From positions 1 to 41,911 of the IMG/VR virus record IMGVR_UViG_3300047334_000112: a DNA stretch of 41,911 nt. One strand, 5' to 3'. The notes under the pieces were generated by a model. The model did no database searches. It saw only the letters and a list, made by a program, of their open reading frames with translations, and had not been told where the DNA came from. The DNA is from a virus. How positions within the stretch are numbered: the stretch's first letter is position 1; the number at the start of each line of letters is the position of its first letter. Positions 18,377-36,528 of this stretch are shown in pieces. Position numbers and translations under genes: made by a program.

Positions 18377-19117
18377 GTGGCGCTGACCTACCAACAGATT
18401 TGCGTCCTGGCCACCCAAGACGCAAAGTGCCCTGGGTTTATGTCTCAGGCCGGTCAGCTGCTCCAGATGATCCTGGAAGACCTGAACCAGACCTACGACC
18501 TCGACGTCGCCAAGAAGACCTTCTACTTCAATTTTAACCCTGGCCTGACCGCCTCCCAAGGCAACAGCATATACGGCTCGGGGCCGTACCCCTTGCCGGC
18601 GGACTATCTCCGCGCCATCGAGGGCGAGGTGTTTTGGACGCTGCAGGGCGTCGTGTACGACATGATCCCGGTGGACTTGGCCGAGTTCGACCATCTCGTC
18701 CAGCAGCCCGGCATCCAGTCTTACCCCTACGTCTTTGCGACCGACCTGTCGCTGAGCGACAATCCGACGCCGGTGATGTACGTCTACGCGCCGCCGAGCG
18801 GCGCTTATCCTGTGACGGTGCGCTACTACTCGCAAATGGCGGACGTGGAGAACCCTCAGACGTCCACCGCCGTTCCTTGGTTCCCCAACAGCGCCTATCT
18901 TCGTCGCCGCTTGGCCGGTGAGCTGATGGGCCTCACGGGGGACGACAGGGCGGATGCGTGGCTGGGCGAGGGACCCATGGGCGCCCAGGGCATCCTTTCA
19001 AGGTATCTCAAGCTTAAAGATGATTCAAGTAATCGCGCTAAAACGATTAAATTAGATCGTCGTCAATTCGGTCGCGCTTACAACACGTTACCCAATACCA
19101 AGCTCATTGGGTGGTGA
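18377..19117 (+). CDS. Head-tail adaptor / tail tube-A-like protein
   Basis: 246 residues from GTG 18377, with AGGAG seven bases upstream. LTYQQICVLATQDAKCPGFMSQAGQLL and PLPADYLRAIEGEVFWTL followed by YSQMADVENPQTSTAVPWFP match the pattern of podovirus gp4/tail tubular A-type adaptors, which ring the portal exit and receive the tail hub. Its position directly before the hub protein supports this. The GTG start and the four-base spacing to the next GTG suggest coupled translation. Confidence 0.75.
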   Translation: MALTYQQICVLATQDAKCPGFMSQAGQLLQMILEDLNQTYDLDVAKKTFYFNFNPGLTASQGNSIYGSGPYPLPADYLRAIEGEVFWTLQGVVYDMIPVDLAEFDHLVQQPGIQSYPYVFATDLSLSDNPTPVMYVYAPPSGAYPVTVRYYSQMADVENPQTSTAVPWFPNSAYLRRRLAGELMGLTGDDRADAWLGEGPMGAQGILSRYLKLKDDSSNRAKTIKLDRRQFGRAYNTLPNTKLIGW

Positions 19118-19120
19118 GCC

Positions 19121-21280
19121 GTGGCGATCAAGAACGCCAAGGTTTTCACCCATAGACCCATCGGCCTGTCTGACAGCCAGGACGGGTCGAACACCTTCAG
19201 CGGGGCCATGCTGGTGCTGCAGAACCTCGTGCCGTCGCCGACCACCAAGAGCGTATTCGTACCGCGGCCTGCCGCGCAGGGGATCGTGAATTTCGCGCCT
19301 TTCAACATGCCGACCGGGGTGACAGCGTTCACCATCGTCGGGTCGCGCATGTACGGGATGATCTCGACCAACCGCAACCCTGGCTATGACGAGCCCTTTT
19401 GCTACGACCTGAAAGCCGGCGCTTACATCCCCGTCAGCGGCGTTCTTCCCGGCAACGTGCCGGCTACGCAGCCGACGGTGGGTGATTGGACGCCGCCGAC
19501 CATCGTGGCGTTCCCCAGCCGCATCATCGTCACGCACCCTGGTTTTCCCGGCGGCGCGGGGCCGTACATCGGCTGGTTCGACATTTCGAGCTTTGTGGCG
19601 GGTGCGATCAGCGGCAACACCGTCGCTGGCTCGCCGGTCATCGCCAGCGTGCAGACGCCGACCGGCACGTCTGCGCCGATCCTGAGCGGCGTGCAGCCTG
19701 GTCAAGCGATCAGCGGGCCAGGGATACCCGCAGGCGCGACGGTGGTCTCCGCGGCGAACGGGACCTTTAGCGCGAACCTGACAGGCAACACCACCAACGC
19801 CAGTCCGATCGTCACAGGTCTCGCGAGCACCGCGGGGATCACCTACGGCATGAGCGTGGCGTCGCCCGCCTTCTCGGTGGACGCCTATGTGGTTTCGGTG
19901 AATAGCGGGACGCAGATCACTTTGTCGGAGAACGCCATTGAGACGGCGGCTTCGGTGGCGATTGACGTCTCGGGCGGCGGGTCGATCACGATCTCCGAGA
20001 ACGCCATAACGACTGCCAACGGCGTTGCCGTGGCGATTGAAGGCGGAACGCTGGCGGCGCCGCTCTGGGGCGCGGGGAACCTCAACACCTATCCCCTGTC
20101 GTCCGTGCCGGCGTGCGTCGGTCAGTTCAACGGGCGGGCCTATTACGGGGTTGGCAACTTCCTGGTCTTTTCCGATTCCCTGAACCCAACCCAGCTCACC
20201 AACGCCAATCAGGCGCTGACTCTGGGCGACAACCAGCCGATCACAGCCCTGGCGGGTCTGCCCTATACCAACACGGTGACGGGAGGCGTGGTCGCAGCGC
20301 TGATCGCGTTCAAGGGGACCGGCACCCAGTACCAGATTACCGGCGACGCCGACACCAGCAACCTTCAGCAGAACGCGATCACCGGCGGGGTCGGCACTCT
20401 GGCGCCCAGCACTATCTGCGCCACGCCGCTCGGCCTGGCCTATGTGGCGACCGACGGGCTTCGCGTCTTGGGTTTGACGGGCCAAGTGTCCGAGCCCATC
20501 GGCACTAACGGCCAAGGCGTCAACACGCCTTTGATCAACGCGCTCTATCCGTCGCGGATGTGCGCAGCCTATGGCCAGGACGTGATGCGGATCAGCCTGC
20601 AAAACCCCCTGGCCGCTGGTCAGCCCTTCCAAGAATATTGGTACGACTTCGACCTGAAGATCTGGACGGGGCCACACACCTTTGCGGCGAACGTGATTGG
20701 GTCTTATCCGATCGGCGGTGCAGGTGGCGGCTTCATCGCCGCGCCGGTTGCTGCGCCGGCCGCACTTTACCAGTCCGGTGTGATCCCTGTTGCGACGTCA
20801 ACCTACACCGAAAATAACGCGACGCTGTCTTGGAACTACACGACAACGCTGGGGCCGGACAACGCAGACATGGCCAACAATCAAGTGGTTGAATCGACGA
20901 TCATGCTGGCCCTTGGCGACCAAGATACGGTGCGCGTCAGAGCCTTCAACGAAGCGAACAAAACCCTCGATACGGTTTACATTGACGGCTACGTCCAGCA
21001 ACCTACGCTCTGGGGGGAGTTCCAGTGGGGTCGCGGCAATTATTATGGTGTAGGAACGGGTATGGGGGGATCGGTCTGGGGCGCCGTGAGCTGGGGGGCT
21101 TTTGACTGGGGTGTGGCGACTGGACCGTTCGTGCAATATCCTATAGACTGGACCGGCACCGTGGACTTCAAACAGATGTCCGTGGAAGTTCTCGGAACCT
21201 CTTCGCCGGGACAATCCATCGGGAACTTGTACATAAAGTATTCCCCGACGGGGTTCCTCACACAAGGGCCAGGAATATGA
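19121..21280 (+). CDS. Tail hub / nozzle protein (P22 gp10-like) with inserted repeats
   Basis: 719 residues from GTG 19121. It begins with the typical nozzle opening (SDSQDGSNTFSGAMLVLQNLVP) and contains beta-propeller-like repeats with FNGRAYYGVGNFLVFSDSLNPTQ, ALIAFKGTGTQYQITGDAD and LGLAYVATDGLRVLGLTG, then VRVRAFNEANKTLDTVYIDG and a Trp/Gly-rich end. This is the layout of podovirus tail hubs (P22 gp10, T7 tail tubular B). Residues about 163-300 are an insert of two related repeats, each with a G..ISGPGIPAGATVVS or GMSVASPAFSVDAYVVS core. The hub closes the channel and holds the fibres encoded next. Confidence 0.8.
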   Translation: MAIKNAKVFTHRPIGLSDSQDGSNTFSGAMLVLQNLVPSPTTKSVFVPRPAAQGIVNFAPFNMPTGVTAFTIVGSRMYGMISTNRNPGYDEPFCYDLKAGAYIPVSGVLPGNVPATQPTVGDWTPPTIVAFPSRIIVTHPGFPGGAGPYIGWFDISSFVAGAISGNTVAGSPVIASVQTPTGTSAPILSGVQPGQAISGPGIPAGATVVSAANGTFSANLTGNTTNASPIVTGLASTAGITYGMSVASPAFSVDAYVVSVNSGTQITLSENAIETAASVAIDVSGGGSITISENAITTANGVAVAIEGGTLAAPLWGAGNLNTYPLSSVPACVGQFNGRAYYGVGNFLVFSDSLNPTQLTNANQALTLGDNQPITALAGLPYTNTVTGGVVAALIAFKGTGTQYQITGDADTSNLQQNAITGGVGTLAPSTICATPLGLAYVATDGLRVLGLTGQVSEPIGTNGQGVNTPLINALYPSRMCAAYGQDVMRISLQNPLAAGQPFQEYWYDFDLKIWTGPHTFAANVIGSYPIGGAGGGFIAAPVAAPAALYQSGVIPVATSTYTENNATLSWNYTTTLGPDNADMANNQVVESTIMLALGDQDTVRVRAFNEANKTLDTVYIDGYVQQPTLWGEFQWGRGNYYGVGTGMGGSVWGAVSWGAFDWGVATGPFVQYPIDWTGTVDFKQMSVEVLGTSSPGQSIGNLYIKYSPTGFLTQGPGI

Positions 21281-21876
21281 AGAAGCTTTTTGCCCTTGCT
21301 GTACTATTGAGCGCCCTAACACGGCCTGCGTTTGCGGGGGTTTGCTCTTCTTATCCTTACGTGTTGAGCAATGGCCAGACCGCCGACGCCAATCAAGTGA
21401 TGGCGGATTTTAATTTAGTCAGGAATTGCTTTGTTAACAGCGGCGCGGCAAACGGCGCGAACAGCGACATCACGTCGCTGAACGGCCTTTTGACCCCACT
21501 ATCGATCGCCCAGGGCGGGACAGGGGGTACAGCAGGGACGGGCGGCCCGGCTGGGGGAGCCTTGGCCGGCACGTATCCTAATCCGACCCTGGCGTCTCAG
21601 GCTGCGCAAACCTTTATAGCCAACGGTTCGGGGTCCGCAGGTGTTCCGGTCGCTATCAGCGCCGCTGCGGCGGGCGCCTTGGTTTACCCAACGGTGTCGG
21701 CATCGATTCTGGGCGCGGCGAACACTTGGGGAGCGGCCCAGGCTTTTCCCTCGGGCGTGACCATTAATTCCGCGCCAGGGATGTACCTGACAAACGGCGG
21801 CGCGGCGTCTGTGACTTACGGGACGGCAGCCCCTGGCACGTTGGCCACTGGGGCCATCTACTTGCAGACAAACTGA
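21277..21876 (+). CDS. Tail fibre-like protein with Sec signal peptide, 199 aa
   Basis: ATG 21277 overlaps the hub gene's stop. The N-terminus MKKLFALAVLLSALTRPAFA is a complete signal peptide (Lys-Lys, hydrophobic core, AFA cleavage site). Then comes a YPYVLSNGQTADANQVMADF motif, shared with the gene at 22367, and a fibre-type IAQGGTGGTAG ... GTYPNPTLAS collagen-like or trimerisation segment. The mature part has two cysteines. Fibre motifs and location next to the hub indicate a receptor-binding accessory; export by Sec is unexpected for a virion protein made in the cytoplasm. Confidence 0.75.
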   Translation: MKKLFALAVLLSALTRPAFAGVCSSYPYVLSNGQTADANQVMADFNLVRNCFVNSGAANGANSDITSLNGLLTPLSIAQGGTGGTAGTGGPAGGALAGTYPNPTLASQAAQTFIANGSGSAGVPVAISAAAAGALVYPTVSASILGAANTWGAAQAFPSGVTINSAPGMYLTNGGAASVTYGTAAPGTLATGAIYLQTN

Positions 21877-22367
21877 TGCGCTGGCTCCTGGCACTGCTGT
21901 GGCTGCTGGCGGGGCCGTGCTGCGCCCAAGTCGTCAGCATTGGTGAGAGCGGCACGAACCACGTCGTCAAGGAGATTTACGTCGGTGAGGGCGGTACAAA
22001 CCACACCGTCATAAGCGGTTACATCGGCACTGTTGCAGGCAACAAGCTCTTCTTTTCGGCTTTGACAGTGGCGGCGTCGCCGACGTCTGTTTCCGGCGCG
22101 CGGGCAACCCCGGGCACGGCCGTGTCGAACTCCTCGACGGCTACGGCTTCAGGCGGTCTCGGCAGCTACACCTACTCGTGGACGGACGAGGGCGCTGCAG
22201 CAATCACGAACCCCACCGCGGCAATAACCACTTTCAGTGCCGCCGTATCTTGTAGCAACACGGTCGTTTCGGACAATGCCACAGTGACGGCGACAGACAC
22301 CTCGACGGGAATCACGGCTCGTGCAAGCGTGTCTGTGATGCTCAGTTTCACCGGGACGCCTTGCTGA
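21876..22367 (+). CDS. Exported protein with Ig/PKD-like domain, 163 aa
   Basis: ATG 21876 overlaps the previous stop by one base. Signal peptide MRWLLALLWLLAGPCCA precedes QVVSIG; the C-C-A end suggests signal peptidase I, and a lipobox is not clear. The mature protein has two GESGTNH/GEGGTNH repeats, then an Ig-like sandwich (ATASGGLGSYTYSWTDEG ... ITTFSAAVSCSNTVVSDNAT) of PKD type, ending TGTPC. Two mature cysteines could close the domain. Likely an adhesin or fibre accessory acting outside the inner membrane. Confidence 0.7.
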   Translation: MRWLLALLWLLAGPCCAQVVSIGESGTNHVVKEIYVGEGGTNHTVISGYIGTVAGNKLFFSALTVAASPTSVSGARATPGTAVSNSSTATASGGLGSYTYSWTDEGAAAITNPTAAITTFSAAVSCSNTVVSDNATVTATDTSTGITARASVSVMLSFTGTPC

Positions 22368-22612
22368 TGGCGGAGCTACCTTACCCTGATCTAGCCAATG
22401 GTCAGCCAGCTGATGTGACTCAGCTTTTGGCAAACTTCAACTTCTTGTTGGGCTTGATCGTAGGAATCTCAAATGGTTTTGCTTTAGTATCGGCGCTACC
22501 AGAAACTGGTTCTGTCGGAGAGACTGTTTTGTTAGAGGATGGCACCGCTCCCGGAACCCCATATTTTTACGGGAGGGACGACGCATGGCACGCTTTTTTC
22601 TTGGCTTCTTAG
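22367..22612 (+). CDS. Short tail fibre-like protein, 81 aa
   Basis: ATG 22367 overlaps the previous stop (TGATG). The product begins MAELPYPDLANGQPADVTQL; the YPxLxNGQxADxxQxxANFN block is the same as in the exported protein at 21277, but here there is no signal peptide and no cysteine. The end (YFYGRDDAWHAFFLAS) overlaps the start of the large fibre gene by 28 bases. It may be the cytoplasmic, virion-bound partner of the exported set, or an adaptor joining fibre to hub. Confidence 0.65.
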   Translation: MAELPYPDLANGQPADVTQLLANFNFLLGLIVGISNGFALVSALPETGSVGETVLLEDGTAPGTPYFYGRDDAWHAFFLAS

Positions 22613-25600
22613 TTACTGCGCTTCTGTTTGGCGGGGCGGCGCGCGCCCAGTCGATCCCAAATCTCCCGATCGCTGGATCGGTTTCAAACACGGATCCGCT
22701 TGCCGTCTGGCACGCTGGTGGCACGAAGCAAGCGACAGCCGCTCAAATAGTTTCTGGAGGCCTTGGAACGGCGCCTGGGGCGTTCGGCTTGAACATCTTG
22801 GCATCGACCACTCAAAGCGGCGCGCAATCCCTTTTAGGCCTTGGCTCGGCCGCTTATCAGCCTGCCACGGCGTTCGACGTTAGCGGCGCGGCTGCGGGGG
22901 CCCAAGCCGCAAGTTTGCAGAAGTCCAACAACCTCAGCGACCTCGCATCTGCTGCCGCAGCGCGCATCAACCTTGGTCTTGGGTCCGCAGCGACACAGCC
23001 TGCCACGGCGTTTGATGCGGCAGGCGCGGCATCGACAGCGCAAGTCGCTGCGGAAACCTTTGCGTCCAATTCTGGCAACCAAGCCATCGGAACGCTACCG
23101 AGCGGCAGATTGTCTGGGAGCTATTTGGGGATCACCAACCTCGGGACGATCTCTATGGGCGGCCCTCTGACGCTTTTTGCCGACGCAGCGCAACCCCTAC
23201 AGCCCGTATCGTTGGAGCAGCTCAACAGCCTTGTGGTGAACAAATACACTGCTAGCGCAGTCGCTACCTCAAATGTCAGTTTAACATCTGCGCCCGCCAC
23301 TATTGACGGCTATACCCTTACTGCCGGCCAGTGTGTGCTACTCACAAACCAAACATCTTCGGTGAATAACGGCCTTTGGGTTTATCCGGGGTCGGGATCA
23401 GCGTTCACCACAAGATGCTCGGGCGCCACCGTCTACTCGGGACTTTACGGCTCGGCTGTGCTAATTTTGAACGGCACAGCGTTTACCGGTACGACTTGGT
23501 CATCGACGTCTCCTGCTAGCGGAACTATAGGAACAACGCCTATAACGTTTGTCCAGACAGGACTCCCTGGCGGCGTTACGGCGGGGGTCGGAATAACTGT
23601 TTCGGGCAATTCGGTGGCCCTGTCCAATACCGGCGTGACGGCAGGAACTTATGGCTCGGCGACTCAAGCTGCCGCCCCGACCGTCAACGCCCAGGGCCAA
23701 ATCACAGGGATAGCGACATACACCGTCACGCCAGCCATCGGATCAATCACTGGACTTGCCACGGGCGTCGCGGCGGCGCTGGCCGTCGCGCCGAACACCA
23801 ACGGAGGATTTGCCGGCTCATATATGCCCACGTTCTCGGGAACGGCTACATTTGCCGGTTTAATTTCATCAAGTTCTGTTACTCCGTTTCAGATCACAGG
23901 TACGGGATCGGCTGGAACCGTAACAATCCAAGGCTACGGCGGAGACACTGTCGAAACTATAACAAGAAACGGTACAAATAATTACAATTTAGCATGGAAT
24001 GGCACCGGTTTTTATACCGGAAGCATAACGTCTAGTGCCGATATTTTAGCAATTGGAGGAAATATAACCTCCACTAACCCCACCGGGGCGGCAAACGTTT
24101 ATGCATCCGGCGCAAGCGGATACACAAGTGGTTTTGGCCTGTGCACTTATGGAGCCCAGTGCCGATGGAACATGGGGCTGGACACAAGCGGTAATTATAA
24201 CATTTACGCCTTCAACTCCAGCGGGGCCTATCTAGGCGACTGGCTGTCAATCAATAACGCCACCGGGGCTGTGACGATCCAAGGGGATGCGGCAGTTGGA
24301 AACCTTGCGGACTTAACCGCAGGGTTCGGCGCTGGCGGCTTAACGGCGGCGTTTTTACGCGGTGGACAACAAATACTTATCGATACACTGTCTCCGTCAA
24401 TAGTAAATAGTTGTGTAAGCGCAACGAGTTCCTGCTCTTACAACGGGAGTTATTCAACCACTGGCCCACTTATTGAATATTGCTCCGCTTCTAACTGCCC
24501 GTTCGACAGCAATGGCACCCATATGTACGCGCAAGACGTTCAATTTTTAACCACAAATCGCCCTTCTTCCGGAGCAACTGGCGCACAAGAGGTGGCGCTT
24601 GCAATCGGAATGTATAGCGTTACTGGAGCGGATGGGCCTACTTCAGGAAACATAAACAACGGAAAAACAGCTCTTTCTATTTCACACGAAGCAATGCCTG
24701 GATCGGGGGCTACGTGGGCAATGACATCCGAAATGGAAATGAAGCGCTCTAGTAGCAGCCCTTACGGGGCAATTAATGCTGAATTCGACTTAAATAATAG
24801 TCAAGCGAATTGTGGGATAGGCGTGGGATGTAACTCATTTAATGTCTGGATTGCCGGAGCTTCGGCTTATACAAATTCAGTCGGATTGTACGTTCACGGA
24901 ATATCTACTACCGGAGGATATGAATCCCATATAGGTGTTTTGATTGATGGGGCGCAAACAGCTCAAGACTCCGGACTTCAAGAGAACACGTCTGCCAGCG
25001 TTGGCATAACAGAAAGTGGAGCACACAACACTGCCATAAACGAAATATCCACATCCACAAACGGTATTATTATTGGAGGTACAAAGTCGTCTTCTTTATT
25101 GTTAATAAACGGAACGTCGTCTTCAGGATACAGCATAAACGATTCTTCAACTTCCACCAGATCTTTGTATATACACGGAACTCATACTTATGGGATCGAC
25201 TTATCTCAGGACTCGTCCTCTTTGGGGATAACAATGCATACGGGGCAGTCTTTATGCTTTAGCGGCACAAGTGATTGTGCACAAGACGTGAGTGGAGTTT
25301 TACAGTTTAATCAAGCTCTGTCTGTCACAGGATTATCAAGCGGGGCTGGAAACGACCCGCTTTGCTGGACAACTAGTTCAGGACTTGTAACTTACGGTAC
25401 ATCGTCTTGTACAGTGTCCGATGCCCGCAAAAAACATGATTGGACGCCGGGAAACGTTCCGGGCATTGAAGCGGTCATGAAAATGACACCAGGGTCTTAT
25501 GTCTTAAACGACGATCCTCACCATATCGGGCAACAGGTGGGTATGCTTGCCCAGGACGTCGCCAAGATTGATCCGCGCTTAGTAACATACTACTATGACG

Positions 25601-25764
25601 GCCCTGACAAGGGTACTCCTTCTGGCATTCGCTACGAACAGCTTGCCGGCTCCGTATTAGTGAAGGGCGAGCAAGACCTTCAGCACGAGATTGACATACT
25701 AAAAGCTGAAGTTTTAGTACTTCAGCTTGCCCTTGGGGGCAGAGCGTCACTAACCTTAAACTAG
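22585..25764 (+). CDS. Large tail fibre/spike with signal peptide and S74 chaperone domain
   Basis: 1059 residues; ATG 22585 has GGAGGG upstream. Signal peptide MARFFLGFLVTALLFGGAARA, then fibre repeats (LGLGSAAYQPATAFD, LGLGSAATQPATAFD), a beta-rich shaft, and a C-terminal peptidase S74 intramolecular chaperone from Ser945-Asp946 (SDARKKHDWTPGN ... GQQVGMLAQDV). S74 domains trimerise the fibre and cut themselves off. Fourteen cysteines occur, mostly in close pairs, all upstream of the chaperone. DNA from about 23860 to 25330 is clearly richer in A and T than its surroundings, suggesting an acquired receptor-binding part. Main host-recognition protein. Confidence 0.88.
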   Translation: MARFFLGFLVTALLFGGAARAQSIPNLPIAGSVSNTDPLAVWHAGGTKQATAAQIVSGGLGTAPGAFGLNILASTTQSGAQSLLGLGSAAYQPATAFDVSGAAAGAQAASLQKSNNLSDLASAAAARINLGLGSAATQPATAFDAAGAASTAQVAAETFASNSGNQAIGTLPSGRLSGSYLGITNLGTISMGGPLTLFADAAQPLQPVSLEQLNSLVVNKYTASAVATSNVSLTSAPATIDGYTLTAGQCVLLTNQTSSVNNGLWVYPGSGSAFTTRCSGATVYSGLYGSAVLILNGTAFTGTTWSSTSPASGTIGTTPITFVQTGLPGGVTAGVGITVSGNSVALSNTGVTAGTYGSATQAAAPTVNAQGQITGIATYTVTPAIGSITGLATGVAAALAVAPNTNGGFAGSYMPTFSGTATFAGLISSSSVTPFQITGTGSAGTVTIQGYGGDTVETITRNGTNNYNLAWNGTGFYTGSITSSADILAIGGNITSTNPTGAANVYASGASGYTSGFGLCTYGAQCRWNMGLDTSGNYNIYAFNSSGAYLGDWLSINNATGAVTIQGDAAVGNLADLTAGFGAGGLTAAFLRGGQQILIDTLSPSIVNSCVSATSSCSYNGSYSTTGPLIEYCSASNCPFDSNGTHMYAQDVQFLTTNRPSSGATGAQEVALAIGMYSVTGADGPTSGNINNGKTALSISHEAMPGSGATWAMTSEMEMKRSSSSPYGAINAEFDLNNSQANCGIGVGCNSFNVWIAGASAYTNSVGLYVHGISTTGGYESHIGVLIDGAQTAQDSGLQENTSASVGITESGAHNTAINEISTSTNGIIIGGTKSSSLLLINGTSSSGYSINDSSTSTRSLYIHGTHTYGIDLSQDSSSLGITMHTGQSLCFSGTSDCAQDVSGVLQFNQALSVTGLSSGAGNDPLCWTTSSGLVTYGTSSCTVSDARKKHDWTPGNVPGIEAVMKMTPGSYVLNDDPHHIGQQVGMLAQDVAKIDPRLVTYYYDGPDKGTPSGIRYEQLAGSVLVKGEQDLQHEIDILKAEVLVLQLALGGRASLTLN

Positions 25765-25774
25765 GAAAAACTCT

Positions 25775-26035
25775 ATGATTGCTTCTCTCATTGCAGCCGC
25801 CGCTATTGCCTCCGTCCCTCAAACCACGGCGCCACCCGCCACCCCGGCGCCCATCACGGCTCAGACGGAGATCACCGTCACCTTGCCCATTGGCGTGCTT
25901 GAGGCCGCCAAGCAGGCGCTCCATAAGGCGTACACGGGCGCCGAGGCCGATCCGGTGATTGAACTGATTACGAAACAGGAGCAGGATGCCGTGGCAAAGT
26001 TACAGGCGGCGGCCAAAACGGACAAGAAGCCTTAG
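25775..26035 (+). CDS. Small protein with hydrophobic N-terminus, 86 aa
   Basis: ATG 25775, ten bases after the fibre stop, with AGGA just upstream. MIASLIAAAAIASVPQTTA is hydrophobic but lacks basic residues, so it is a weak signal peptide or anchor. The rest is a Pro/Thr-rich linker (APPATPAPITAQTE) and a helical charged end (LEAAKQALHKAYTG ... KLQAAAKTDKKP). It contains no cysteine. It sits within the block of exported proteins and may be a periplasmic helper; a spanin-like role is conceivable but not shown. Confidence 0.55.
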   Translation: MIASLIAAAAIASVPQTTAPPATPAPITAQTEITVTLPIGVLEAAKQALHKAYTGAEADPVIELITKQEQDAVAKLQAAAKTDKKP

Positions 26036-26044
26036 GAGAGCAGC

Positions 26045-26530
26045 ATGAAGCGCATTCTGGTAGCCTTGGCGCTGTTGCTTTCGCCTTTAGCGGCGCACGC
26101 CCAGAACTTTGGCGCCGTAGTGGTTCCCGCTTGCGGTACGCCAAACAACGCCCCTGTCGTGGGCAGTCCCTACTCCCTGACCCAGGATCCTACGCTTAGG
26201 CTGTGCGATAGCGGGCCGAGCAATAACACGGCGAACAGTCCTTACTATATTGTCGGAAAGCAAGAATCCTTTGCGCTGGTTACAAACAACGTGGCCAGCG
26301 GAGCGGTTACCGTCACGGGAGGCGATTACGTCTTAAGCCAAGTTTGCTCTGGTTACGGGACTTTGGTTCTTCAAGGTTTAGATGCCAGCGGCGCTTATGA
26401 AAACTTAATATCAAAGACCGCGACTGATTCCGTTGGAGGCACCGGAGTAACCCTCGCCGGAAATGCCGTGGTGCGAGTTCTCCTCACAGGCACGACCGGC
26501 TGTGTGGCCACCTTGACGCGGGTTCCTTGA
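26045..26530 (+). CDS. Exported beta-rich protein, 161 aa
   Basis: ATG 26045 with AGGAGAG upstream. Signal peptide MKRILVALALLLSPLAAHA before QNFGAV is complete (Lys-Arg, hydrophobic core, AHA site). The mature protein is Gly/Thr/Val-rich, probably a jelly-roll or beta-sandwich (VTGGDYVLSQVCSGYGTLVL), with four cysteines at spread positions. The sequence resembles beta-sandwich domains appended to tail fibres. Together with its neighbours it suggests a periplasmic or surface complex. Confidence 0.65.
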   Translation: MKRILVALALLLSPLAAHAQNFGAVVVPACGTPNNAPVVGSPYSLTQDPTLRLCDSGPSNNTANSPYYIVGKQESFALVTNNVASGAVTVTGGDYVLSQVCSGYGTLVLQGLDASGAYENLISKTATDSVGGTGVTLAGNAVVRVLLTGTTGCVATLTRVP

Positions 26531-26533
26531 GCC

Positions 26534-28180
26534 ATGAAGCGCTTTTTCAAAGTCCTCGGGCTGTCCCTGGCTTTAGCTTCTCAGTTTTTTGGCGCCCTCG
26601 CTGAGGCCCAAACAAAGCACAGGTATTTCACTGCCGTCGCAGTAAACGGGGGGCAGTCAGCTACAAACGGGGCTAACTTAACCCGTTACATGTTGGCCGG
26701 AACCCGCTTAAGAATTCTTGATGCACAGTTCAACGTGTCATCCCAATACGTATATGCGGCGAGCAATATTATTGTCGGAACGCCGAACTGGACGTGCCAC
26801 AACCCGCGACTTCTATTAACCAACTGGCAAATTTCATCTTCCGGCACAATCAACAATCCGGGAAACGCGATTAACATCGAGAAGCTCGCGTTTTGGAATT
26901 CGGCGGGCACGGTCACGACGCCGATCACCATCCAAGGGTCTCGCGCTTATACAATCCCTAACGGCGGCCAGGTCTGGACAGACCCTGCGCCTGTCGATTT
27001 GACCGCGAACAGCACCTACAACATTCGTGAAGCCTACAATGTCGCGGTTGGCGGCAATCGCGTCGGGAGTTCAGTTCCGCCGATACCCGGCGAGGGCTTC
27101 GTCGTCAGTTCAAGCGATCGGTCCAGCTATGTCGATACGTTCACGGCGATGGGGCCGAGCTTGGGCGTGGGCAACGCGTTCTACATGCCGATCGCCATGG
27201 CTTGCCAAGGCTGGGATGGATCGCCGGTCATTTGGATGCTGGGCGACAGCATCGGTGACTATCTTCAGGTCAACGCCACCTTGGCGGACAGCAGAGGCAA
27301 TCGCTCGTGGGTCGAGGACATGCTCGACGACTCAGGGCGTCGCCTCGCTTACAGCAATTGGAGCCGAGTAAGCGCTACCCCAGCGTGGTACTATGGGTCG
27401 CAGTTTCTGGCTAACGCTATCGCGGCGTTCTCGGCCCTAGGGTCTCAGCCCCCTTTCACGGCGGTTCTCAACGAAACCGTCGTCAACTCGATCCAGGGCA
27501 AGGGCGTGAGTGGTACGGAGGCGCAGCTTACCGCGCTTCAAGCTGCAATGCAGGCAAATTGGCCCGGGACCGCCTTTTATCAGACGCTTTCGACGACCTA
27601 TACCTCATCAACCGACGGGTGGACCACAACCACGAACCAGACGCCAAACAATGGCTTTACTGTCGGGGGAACGAGAGACCAAGTCAACGCTTGGATTGAG
27701 GCGAATACCGCGTTCACCGCCTACATTGATCCAACGCCTGTATTGGAGGCCAACAACGTTTGGCTTGTTCCCAACTATTCAACTACATTGGCGGGCGGCA
27801 CAGCTGTTGGCAACGCCATTCCGGCCAACTATTATTACACCTCGGCCAGCGTTTCAAACGCTTTATACCTCAATGCCTGTCCTCCCATTGGTACTTTTCT
27901 AGTCTTTGAACCGGGCACATCAAATCAAGACTACAATACAGGTGCCGGATATGGCATCGTCAGCGAAGTTAACAACGGAACAAACTGTTTTGTAACGCTT
28001 GGTCCCGCCACTAATCAACAAATCGGCTGGCTCAATTCCTCACCTATCGCCAAAGCCCACGCATTGAATGTTACGGTGACCAGTTCTGACAGCATAGACG
28101 GTCTGCACCCGACATATGCCAACACACAGGCCGCCGCTGCTTACGCGATTTCGACGCAGAAACCTAAGATATCTAAATAG
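26534..28180 (+). CDS. Exported SGNH/GDSL-type esterase
   Basis: 548 residues, ATG three bases after the previous stop codon. Signal peptide MKRFFKVLGLSLALASQF...ALAEA before QTKHR. Residues about 30-215 form a beta-rich domain. The SGNH block I is WMLGDSIGDYL (Asp238, Ser239), VLNETVVNS may be the block III Asn region, and block V is DGLHPTYANT (Asp522, His525), giving a Ser-Asp-His triad. SGNH enzymes in phage tails remove O-acetyl groups from capsule or LPS sugars. Four cysteines occur. Unlike usual tail esterases it has an export signal, so it may act on newly made surface polysaccharide from inside the cell. Confidence 0.78.
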   Translation: MKRFFKVLGLSLALASQFFGALAEAQTKHRYFTAVAVNGGQSATNGANLTRYMLAGTRLRILDAQFNVSSQYVYAASNIIVGTPNWTCHNPRLLLTNWQISSSGTINNPGNAINIEKLAFWNSAGTVTTPITIQGSRAYTIPNGGQVWTDPAPVDLTANSTYNIREAYNVAVGGNRVGSSVPPIPGEGFVVSSSDRSSYVDTFTAMGPSLGVGNAFYMPIAMACQGWDGSPVIWMLGDSIGDYLQVNATLADSRGNRSWVEDMLDDSGRRLAYSNWSRVSATPAWYYGSQFLANAIAAFSALGSQPPFTAVLNETVVNSIQGKGVSGTEAQLTALQAAMQANWPGTAFYQTLSTTYTSSTDGWTTTTNQTPNNGFTVGGTRDQVNAWIEANTAFTAYIDPTPVLEANNVWLVPNYSTTLAGGTAVGNAIPANYYYTSASVSNALYLNACPPIGTFLVFEPGTSNQDYNTGAGYGIVSEVNNGTNCFVTLGPATNQQIGWLNSSPIAKAHALNVTVTSSDSIDGLHPTYANTQAAAAYAISTQKPKISK

Positions 28181-28458: not shown

Positions 28459-28617
28459 ATGGCCAAGAGCGGCAAGGGTTACATGCACGAAGGCATGAAG
28501 AATATGTCGCCCCCTGGCGACTCAGGGATGCGCCCGCCTAAGGGCAGCGTGAACAGCGACCCGACGCGCAGCGGCGTGGCGCCGACCCCCAAGACCCTCG
28601 GCCCGAGGACTGCGTGA
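28459..28617 (+). CDS. Small basic protein, 52 aa
   Basis: ATG 28459, one base after the previous stop. The product begins MAKSGKGYMHEGMKNMSPPG and is rich in Lys, Gly, Met, Pro and Ser, without hydrophobic segments, so it is probably disordered. Similar short basic proteins occur in podovirus virions or near lysis genes. Its stop overlaps the endolysin start (GTGA), so it is translated in a coupled set. Confidence 0.6.
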   Translation: MAKSGKGYMHEGMKNMSPPGDSGMRPPKGSVNSDPTRSGVAPTPKTLGPRTA

Positions 28618-29087
28618 CGCGGCCAGTCCCTGCCTGCTTGCCGCCGTTCGTCAAGCGGTTCGAGGGCTTCGTGCCGAAGGCGCAGCCGGACCCCGCCGGC
28701 TTTTTGACCATCGGTTTTGGTCACAAGATCACCGGCGCCGATCCCGACAGTTACCGCACTGAGCCAATGGCCTTGGCCGACGCGGATGCGCTCCTTCTGC
28801 ACGACCTGAACGCCGATGGCGCGGTACCCGTTTGCCGGCTCTTGGATCCCCCTGTGCTGGCGCGTCTGACCGACAACCAGTACGCCGCCTTGGTCGATTT
28901 TACCTACAACGAAGGTATCGGCCGTGTGGTCGGCTCGAAGCTGTTTCGTCTTTTGAACGTCGGGCAGCTCGACCAAGTCGCCGCAGAATTTGGTCGCTGG
29001 ATCTACGGAGACGTCGCTGGCCGTGAGGTAGTTATGCCTGGATTGGTCGCGCGCCGGCAAGCCGAGACGGAGCTTTGGCTGTCGTGA
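28614..29087 (+). CDS. Endolysin, GH24 T4-type lysozyme
   Basis: 157 residues from GTG 28614. The catalytic triad follows T4 lysozyme spacing: Glu17 (RFEGF), Asp26 (QPDPAG) and Thr32 in TIGFGH. Further conserved parts are LTDNQYAALVDFTYNEG and the C-terminal GLVARRQAETELW. It cleaves the glycan backbone of peptidoglycan. There is no signal sequence, so release needs a holin; the candidate at 9224 is distant. Overlaps both neighbours by GTGA. Confidence 0.92.
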   Translation: MTRPVPACLPPFVKRFEGFVPKAQPDPAGFLTIGFGHKITGADPDSYRTEPMALADADALLLHDLNADGAVPVCRLLDPPVLARLTDNQYAALVDFTYNEGIGRVVGSKLFRLLNVGQLDQVAAEFGRWIYGDVAGREVVMPGLVARRQAETELWLS

Positions 29088-35024: not shown

Positions 35025-35209
35025 AGCTCAAACTCATCACCAGACGAAACCAATGTGACCCTTTTAACAAGAAGCGTATCCTGATGCTTAAGCTGAAGGA
35101 CCGCGTGTTGTTTATCGGTTGGTCTTTTCGGTGGTCTACGCCACACGAAATAGAAGGCGGGTGGCGCTGGACGCGACGACCCATTTTCGGCTGGGGCGTG
35201 ATAAAATGA
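35021..35209 (+). CDS. Small basic protein, 62 aa
   Basis: ATG 35021 overlaps the previous stop and its TGA overlaps the next ATG, both as ATGA. The product is rich in Lys, Arg and Trp (MKLKLITRRNQCDPFNKKRI ... WSFRWSTPHEIEGGWRWTRR) and ends WGVIK. It could bind nucleic acid or membranes. No family recognised; coupling on both sides supports it. Confidence 0.6.
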   Translation: MKLKLITRRNQCDPFNKKRILMLKLKDRVLFIGWSFRWSTPHEIEGGWRWTRRPIFGWGVIK

Positions 35210-36528
35210 AAGTGCTCCTGCTCGACCGCTATGGATCGGATGGGATGCTCGACGTCGCCATGCGCATGGAGGCCGACGGTCATGAGGTGCGCTGGTCTTT
35301 CCGCAAGGACGAGCGCAACCAGAACATCGGCAAAGGGCTGGTCAAAGGGCGCATCAGCGATTGGCGCCCCTCGATCAACTGGGCCGACATCGTGCTCCTG
35401 GCCGACAACACGATCTACCTGCGCGAGTTGGACGCCTGGCGGGACCGCGGCGTGCGGATCGTCGGCGCCACCCAGGAGGCGGCTAAGTGGGAGCTGGACC
35501 GCAAGACCGGGCAGGACGTGTTCAAAAAGCACAAAATCGACGTGCCCGACTACAAGGAGTTCTCCGACTACGATTCGGCCATCGCCTACGTGAAGAAAGA
35601 GAACCGCGCTTTCGTCTCCAAGCCGTCCTATGACGAAGCCGACAAGTCGCTCAGCTACGTCGCCAAAACCCCGGTCGATCTCATCTTCATGTTGGAAAGG
35701 TGGAAGAGAGCCGGCCGGCACAAGGGCGCTTTTATCCTCCAGGAGAAGGTCTCAGGCTGCGAGATGGCCGTGGGCGCCTTCTTTGGGCCGCACGGCTTCA
35801 GCCAGGGGTGGTGCGAGAACTGGGAGTTCAAGTCGCTGATGGCCGGCGACCGCGGCCCAAACGTGGGTGAGATGGGGACGGTGGTGCGCTTCGTCGTTAG
35901 GTCGCGCTTGGCCGACAAGGTGCTGAAGCCGCTCGAAGACGCCCTCTCGCGTCTGGACTATTGCGGCTACGTCGATGTGAACTGTATCATCGACGAAGAA
36001 GGGACGCCTTGGCCGCTGGAGTTCACCATGCGCCCAGGGTGGCCGACGTTCAACATCCAGCAGAGCTTGCTCAAGGGAGATCACGCAGAATGGCTGGCTT
36101 CGCTCGCAGAAGGGCGCGACAGTCGGCCCTTCTCCTTAAACAAAATCTCGACCGGGGTGGTGATGGCGCTCCCGGAGTTCCCTTACGGGAAGACCCCGCT
36201 GGACAAGATTATGGGGGCGCCCCTCTACGGACTGACCCCGGCCCTGAGGAAGAACGTCCACCTGTGCGGCGCGATGGAAGGACCCGCGCCGCAAGAGCGG
36301 AACGGGCAAATCGTCAGCGAGAAGATGACCCTGGCGGCGGGGGACTACGTGCTGGTGGCGACGGGGCTGGGCGACAGCGTACAGCAGGCGCGAAACAAGG
36401 CGTACCGGATCTTGGAGAAGATCAAGATTCCGGCGTCGCCGTTCTGGCGGCCGGATATCGGGAGCAGGCTGAAGAAGCAATTGCCCGAAGTGCAGAAGCA
36501 CGGCTACGCGACGGGGATGACGTTCTAA
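35206..36528 (+). CDS. PurD-like ATP-grasp ligase
   Basis: 440 residues from ATG 35206. An N-terminal PurD-like nucleotide fold (MKVLLLDRYGSDGMLDVAMRM; SINWADIVLLADN) is followed by an ATP-grasp core: FILQEKVSGCEMAVGAFF, MAGDRGPNVGEMGT, and VDVNCIIDEEGTPWPLEFTMRPG. The PurD C-terminal block is also present (VATGLGDSVQQARNKAYRIL, PFWRPDIGSRL). PurD joins glycine to phosphoribosylamine. Here the metal-binding EFNxRFGDPE of PurD reads EFTMRPGWPT, so the substrate probably differs. In a phage an altered amino-acid ligase might modify DNA, a nucleotide or a host metabolite. Confidence 0.75.
   Translation: MKVLLLDRYGSDGMLDVAMRMEADGHEVRWSFRKDERNQNIGKGLVKGRISDWRPSINWADIVLLADNTIYLRELDAWRDRGVRIVGATQEAAKWELDRKTGQDVFKKHKIDVPDYKEFSDYDSAIAYVKKENRAFVSKPSYDEADKSLSYVAKTPVDLIFMLERWKRAGRHKGAFILQEKVSGCEMAVGAFFGPHGFSQGWCENWEFKSLMAGDRGPNVGEMGTVVRFVVRSRLADKVLKPLEDALSRLDYCGYVDVNCIIDEEGTPWPLEFTMRPGWPTFNIQQSLLKGDHAEWLASLAEGRDSRPFSLNKISTGVVMALPEFPYGKTPLDKIMGAPLYGLTPALRKNVHLCGAMEGPAPQERNGQIVSEKMTLAAGDYVLVATGLGDSVQQARNKAYRILEKIKIPASPFWRPDIGSRLKKQLPEVQKHGYATGMTF

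Follow-up and report, generated by a model that had tools for sequence, protein, structure and literature searches.

Predicted Sec signal peptides and paired cysteines in the tail-fibre block of a short-tailed phage suggest fibre assembly outside the cytoplasm

It is assumed that tailed phages fold and assemble their fibres in the cytoplasm, and a fibre locus in which most genes begin with apparent Sec signal peptides (SPs) raises the question of where its products are built and how they would reach the virion. Such a block occupies positions 21277–28180 of the virus record IMGVR_UViG_3300047334_000112, whose whole analysed stretch (41,911 nt, 41.9 kb) is referred to below as the window; the open reading frames and coordinates given for the block in an earlier note, made from the letters of the sequence, were correct. 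The gene order is of the short-tailed-phage type, running from a terminase through a portal-like protein, a major head protein and an SU10-type adaptor to the gene at 19121, which encodes a protein of 719 residues. The block comes next, and after it an endolysin gene and genes for three large late proteins (Table 1). The GC content of the block is 0.55 versus 0.62 for the adjoining structural genes. Positions 35119–36528 of this phage genome encode an ATP-grasp protein resembling phosphoribosylglycinamide synthetase (GARS/PurD). We consider it probable that the block supplies an SU10/T7-like short-tailed phage with its tail fibres and a surface enzyme, which would be produced by a three-step route of export, oxidation and docking.

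Table 1. Features of the block and its surroundings in the window, with the basis of each assignment (aa, amino acids; SP, signal peptide).
Feature	Position	Strand	Basis
Tail adaptor	18377..19117	+	Pfam SU10_adaptor PF24175, 5.9e-8
Predicted tail nozzle protein, 719 aa	19121..21280	+	AlphaFold2 model and Foldseek
Candidate fibre-dock loop within nozzle	21011..21109	+	Trp 631/636 and full WGxxxWGxxxWG at 653/658/663
Fibre 1: SP and module GVC..YPYxLxNGxxADAxQVMADFN...RNC, Cys23 and Cys51	21277..21876	+	SP score 13.1; tail-fibre PHROGs
Predicted SP of fibre 1, MKKLFALAVLLSALTRPAFA, cleaved before G	21277..21336	+	SP scorer
Small protein: SP, 2 mature Cys, weak SprB-like stretch	21876..22367	+	SP score 10.7; weak SprB repeat match
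Second module copy, no SP, no Cys; candidate virion-side base	22367..22612	+	SP scorer; module comparison
Large fibre: SP, 14 Cys, C-terminal S74 chaperone	22585..25764	+	SP score 12.9; Peptidase_S74 5e-8; tail fibre/virion PHROGs
Small protein, weak hydrophobic start, no SP call	25775..26035	+	SP scorer
Small protein: SP, 4 mature Cys	26045..26530	+	SP score 14.2
SGNH/GDSL-type esterase: SP, 4 mature Cys, GDS 237, DxxH 522	26534..28180	+	SP score 10.6; phrog_8480 4e-34
Lysozyme-type endolysin, no SP	28614..29087	+	Pfam Phage_lysozyme 3e-27

The 719-residue protein is a tail nozzle according to its AlphaFold2 model (mean pLDDT 80), for which the best Foldseek matches were portal-tail or nozzle chains of podoviruses, including HRP29, Kp7/Kp9, the T7 tail complex and the PhiM1 nozzle (E 8e-14 to 1.5e-8). 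Overlaps of 1 to 28 bases link the first block genes and the nozzle gene, including start-stop overlaps with the nozzle gene and an overlap of 28 nt between the large-fibre gene 22585 and gene 22367, and the first block genes are therefore probably co-translated with the nozzle. At the other end of the block, the second motif of the esterase reads DGLH at 522, following GDS at 237, and no match was found between this protein and Pfam GDSL. The nozzle carries a WGxxxWGxxxWG motif about 55 residues from its end, in a stretch of low model confidence. In phage SU10, the short fibre docks with pseudo-threefold symmetry on a nozzle loop via three Trp residues (839/847/857) (PMC9509320); by its sequence motif alone, the triple-Trp loop of the window nozzle resembles this dock and is a candidate for the same role.

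Signal peptides were detected with a home-made Sec/SPI scorer calibrated on a region of E. coli K-12, in which the periplasmic proteins TolB, CpoB, YbgS and ModA scored 10.6–12.3 with plausible cleavage sites, the lipoprotein Pal scored 11.4 and cytosolic proteins reached at most 4.6; since some K-12 inner-membrane proteins score 9–15, the score alone cannot reject N-terminal anchors. On this scale, clear Sec SPs were found in five of the seven block proteins (Table 1), as the earlier note had proposed, and the protein at 25775, described there as having a weaker hydrophobic start, received no SP call. The remaining 34 likely genes of the window score at most 7.4, and a score of 10.5 was reached by only 2 of 151 other ORFs and by none of 20,000 random internal starts. 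The probability of five SPs among seven proteins by chance is 8e-9, and the Sec SPs of the block are thus beyond chance. The n-h-c layout with an AXA site is present as judged by this heuristic, E. coli-calibrated scorer, and no strong transmembrane segments were found in the mature parts of the five proteins. Chance or mis-called starts as the source of the signals were rejected by the background scores and a start-codon check, and lipoproteins were rejected on the basis of the lipobox [LVI][ASTVI][GAS]C, found at the site in none of the five SPs. In fibre 1 of the window, no ATG, GTG or TTG codon occurs from three residues before the cleavage site to the module, making it unlikely that internal initiation yields an additional, signal-free product there; such a codon is present in 30 of the 64 SP-bearing modules described below.

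The mature parts of the five SP-bearing proteins contain, in gene order, 2, 2, 14, 4 and 4 cysteines, confirming the even counts reported before. The close pairs described for the large fibre are located at 520/526, 610/617, 633/638, 743/749 and 891/898. Its final cysteine, 942, is followed almost at once by the S74 domain (945–1000), and the chaperone itself contains none. The even parity of SP-bearing proteins is above chance: 93 non-redundant examples from the window and its relatives comprise 73 even and 13 odd cases (p = 3e-11), and 707 SP-less proteins of the types found in the block comprise 202 even and 313 odd ones. Within the family of the fibre-1 module, the non-zero cases were 37 even and 3 odd with an SP versus 5 and 8 without (p = 2e-4), and the cysteine density was 10.9 versus 6.6 per 1000. 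Some SP-less fibres run against this trend by being rich in cysteines: that of L004 (3569–5305), in which the module is joined to a beta-helix-like spike, has 15 and that of L006 has 8. Paired cysteines linked to SPs and an even parity agree with the prediction for chains oxidised outside the cytoplasm.

To cover relatives independently of the signal, viral and cellular contigs were searched with the fibre-1 module without its SP, so that recruitment was blind to SP status. This gave 88 distinct modules: an SP precedes 64 of them, with the predicted cut mostly 4–8 residues upstream, and the other 24 stand at the very start of their proteins. The SP-bearing modules have both cysteine A, next to the mature N-terminus, and cysteine B, about 27 residues further, in 52 cases, neither in 12 and one alone in none, whereas both were present in 0 of the 24 SP-less modules (Fisher 5e-13, computed on rows that are related to each other). 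Independent SP/Cys contrasts on supported branches amount to about 3 to 0, as predicted, a number too small for a p value. The SP changed at least 10 times on the best tree, with 4 changes forced by supported branches, and the sisters L051 (without SP) and L066 (with SP) have homologous bodies and differ by the SP. Homologues lacking an N-terminal hydrophobic segment had been named in the earlier note as evidence against export; they do exist, as a minority, but since they also lack the cysteine pair they support the export idea.

The same alternation is seen for another fibre N-terminus, KTKAALTTEINTNF, which is unrelated to the module and, in the same place, either follows directly on an SP or lacks one. 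The fibre domains of SP-bearing proteins include Collar (in 11), gp53-like, the Mtd second domain, S74 and GDSL, together with matches to tail-fibre PHROGs. The match of one such fibre to the Mtd second domain (PF21916) makes a diversity-generating retroelement worth looking for. The motif of the fibre-1 module is common to the fibres of SU10 and PhiM1; its AlphaFold2 model is confident for residues 1–30 only, and a Foldseek search of the module fold against the PDB gave no match. No close cultured relatives were found in INPHARED by portal, nozzle or module, the only matches there being to the shaft motif GANSDITSL, which occurs in the fibres of Kuravirus and in other fibres, and a single-sequence scan of viral contigs revealed no relatives of the esterase.

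The 39 nozzle-recruited relatives, 97 to 31% identical, repeat the SP pattern in the genes behind the nozzle, and the distance from the nozzle stop to the start of the module is, in nearly all cases, no more than about 130 nt. The Trp triplet is present in 45 of 46 nozzles accompanied by SP-bearing modules and in 12 of 15 accompanied by SP-less ones; among nozzle-recruited relatives it was found in 35/39 with the module versus 7/18 without it (p = 1e-4), with no difference by SP status. Having the same slot, the same module and an equally conserved nozzle Trp loop, the SP-bearing proteins look like genuine virion fibres. The protein at 22367, in which neither signal nor cysteine was found, as described before, had been suggested as a virion-side partner, and this idea is compatible with its being a second module copy and with the degenerate second Trp repeat, LWGEFQWGRGNYY, that precedes the full triplet in the window nozzle. 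Two module proteins each are found in the window, L003 and L004. The L003 nozzle has two full Trp triplets, and its counterpart of 22367 is an SP-less module overlapping the next SP-bearing gene, as in the window; the Trp repeats of L004 are arranged similarly, but its second module is instead part of the SP-less beta-helix-like spike protein. The correspondence between second module and second Trp repeat is not strict, since L006 and L012 combine two modules with one triplet.

The proteins might be exported and yet never become virion parts, acting in the envelope or outside the cell by blocking receptors, stripping sugars through the esterase or detaching progeny from debris. The SPs and even cysteine numbers would fit such roles, under which the esterase would work in the periplasm. 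Moreover, SP-bearing, Cys-paired module relatives occur, single or in tandem, in the bacterial-genome contigs L165, L166, L173, L129 and L200 (three copies in L165, four in L200); bacterial contigs with the module include Rhizobium tropici and Reyranella, and some of the copies lie near YD-repeat-like genes. Beside the modules of L165, L166, L173 and L200, no phage genes were evident in the stretches read, so that a secreted cellular role for the module may exist, and these relatives are possibly a cellular secreted family. However, the SP-bearing genes occupy the slot of SP-less fibres behind the nozzle, the Trp dock is kept equally, which receptor blocking or sugar stripping from inside explains less well, and the window offers no further gene recognisable as adhesin-like. 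A purely envelope role is thus rather unlikely, and virion docking is preferred chiefly because of the dock conservation; among the options raised in the earlier note, periplasmic fibres joining virions at lysis are favoured.

A division of fates, with fibre 1 and the large fibre on virions and the esterase and small SP-bearing proteins in the envelope or shed free, appears improbable. It agrees with the restriction of the docking module to fibre 1 and 22367, no dock being recognised in 21876, 26045 and 26534, and with L035, where an SP-less fibre 1 stands beside SP-bearing neighbours, among them a GDSL-like protein; on the other hand, the esterase has homologues in Rhizobium phages, encoded in a tail gene region and lacking an SP, which suggests a virion enzyme. 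It is very doubtful that the hydrophobic N-termini are not used as Sec signals but serve, for example, as docking peptides of proteins staying in the cytoplasm. Although some membrane anchors also pass the home-made scorer, such a use would not account for the n-h-c layout with AXA sites 4–8 residues before the module in most cases, the signal placement shared by two unrelated fibre families, or the paired cysteines and even parity that go with the presence of an SP.

Sec export and oxidation of the fibre proteins are well supported by inference from their sequences, and docking of the exported fibres on virions is likely by analogy; if both are true, joining at lysis follows. For the preferred route of export and docking, we strongly infer that late genes translationally coupled to the nozzle would yield SP-bearing fibre proteins that are exported via Sec and cleaved, and equally that the mature chains would form disulphides in the oxidising periplasm and assemble into fibres, a disulphide staple linking the first residues to the helix of the N-terminal module. 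Virions would be made in the cytoplasm and stay fibreless until holin and endolysin merge the compartments, whereupon the fibre module would likely dock on the triple-Trp loop of the nozzle. For the large fibre, the SP-less product of 22367 may provide a base by binding to the second Trp repeat while still in the cytoplasm. With somewhat less confidence than for the block itself, it seems on balance likely that a widespread tailed-phage lineage completes its virions outside the cytoplasm at lysis, SPs having been repeatedly gained and lost together with the disulphide pair.

If the fibres are exported, a whole uncultured group would make disulphide-bonded receptor-binding machinery in another compartment and complete its virions at lysis. 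This would bear on the production of fibres for study, on how phages separate fibres from receptors and on the annotation of 'secreted' proteins in viral metagenomes, and the sister pairs with and without an SP make the idea directly testable.

A search of the open-access literature revealed no reports of Sec-exported tail fibres in tailed phages. Virion proteins with Sec signals and disulphides are known as the minor coat proteins of filamentous phages (pIII), but these belong to an unrelated virus whose assembly at the membrane involves no lysis. SAR endolysins and phage-encoded exported lipoproteins such as Llp and Bor are also phage proteins using Sec; unlike the products of the block, they are lysis or exclusion proteins and not virion fibres. 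The lysophospholipase L1-like esterase of Rhizobium phage P10VF (phrog_8480) is homologous to the protein at 26534 and located in the tail gene region, differing from it in the lack of an SP and in its N-terminus. The nozzle-docked short fibre of SU10 (gp16/gp17; PMC9509320) shares with the window the adaptor family, the nozzle fold, the three-Trp dock loop, the N-terminal fibre segment before a helix and the neighbouring genes. However, its dock module has no close sequence relation to that of the window, and SU10 gp16 has no SP and begins with MAIETNAVVITDL, whereas the window fibres carry predicted SPs and paired cysteines.
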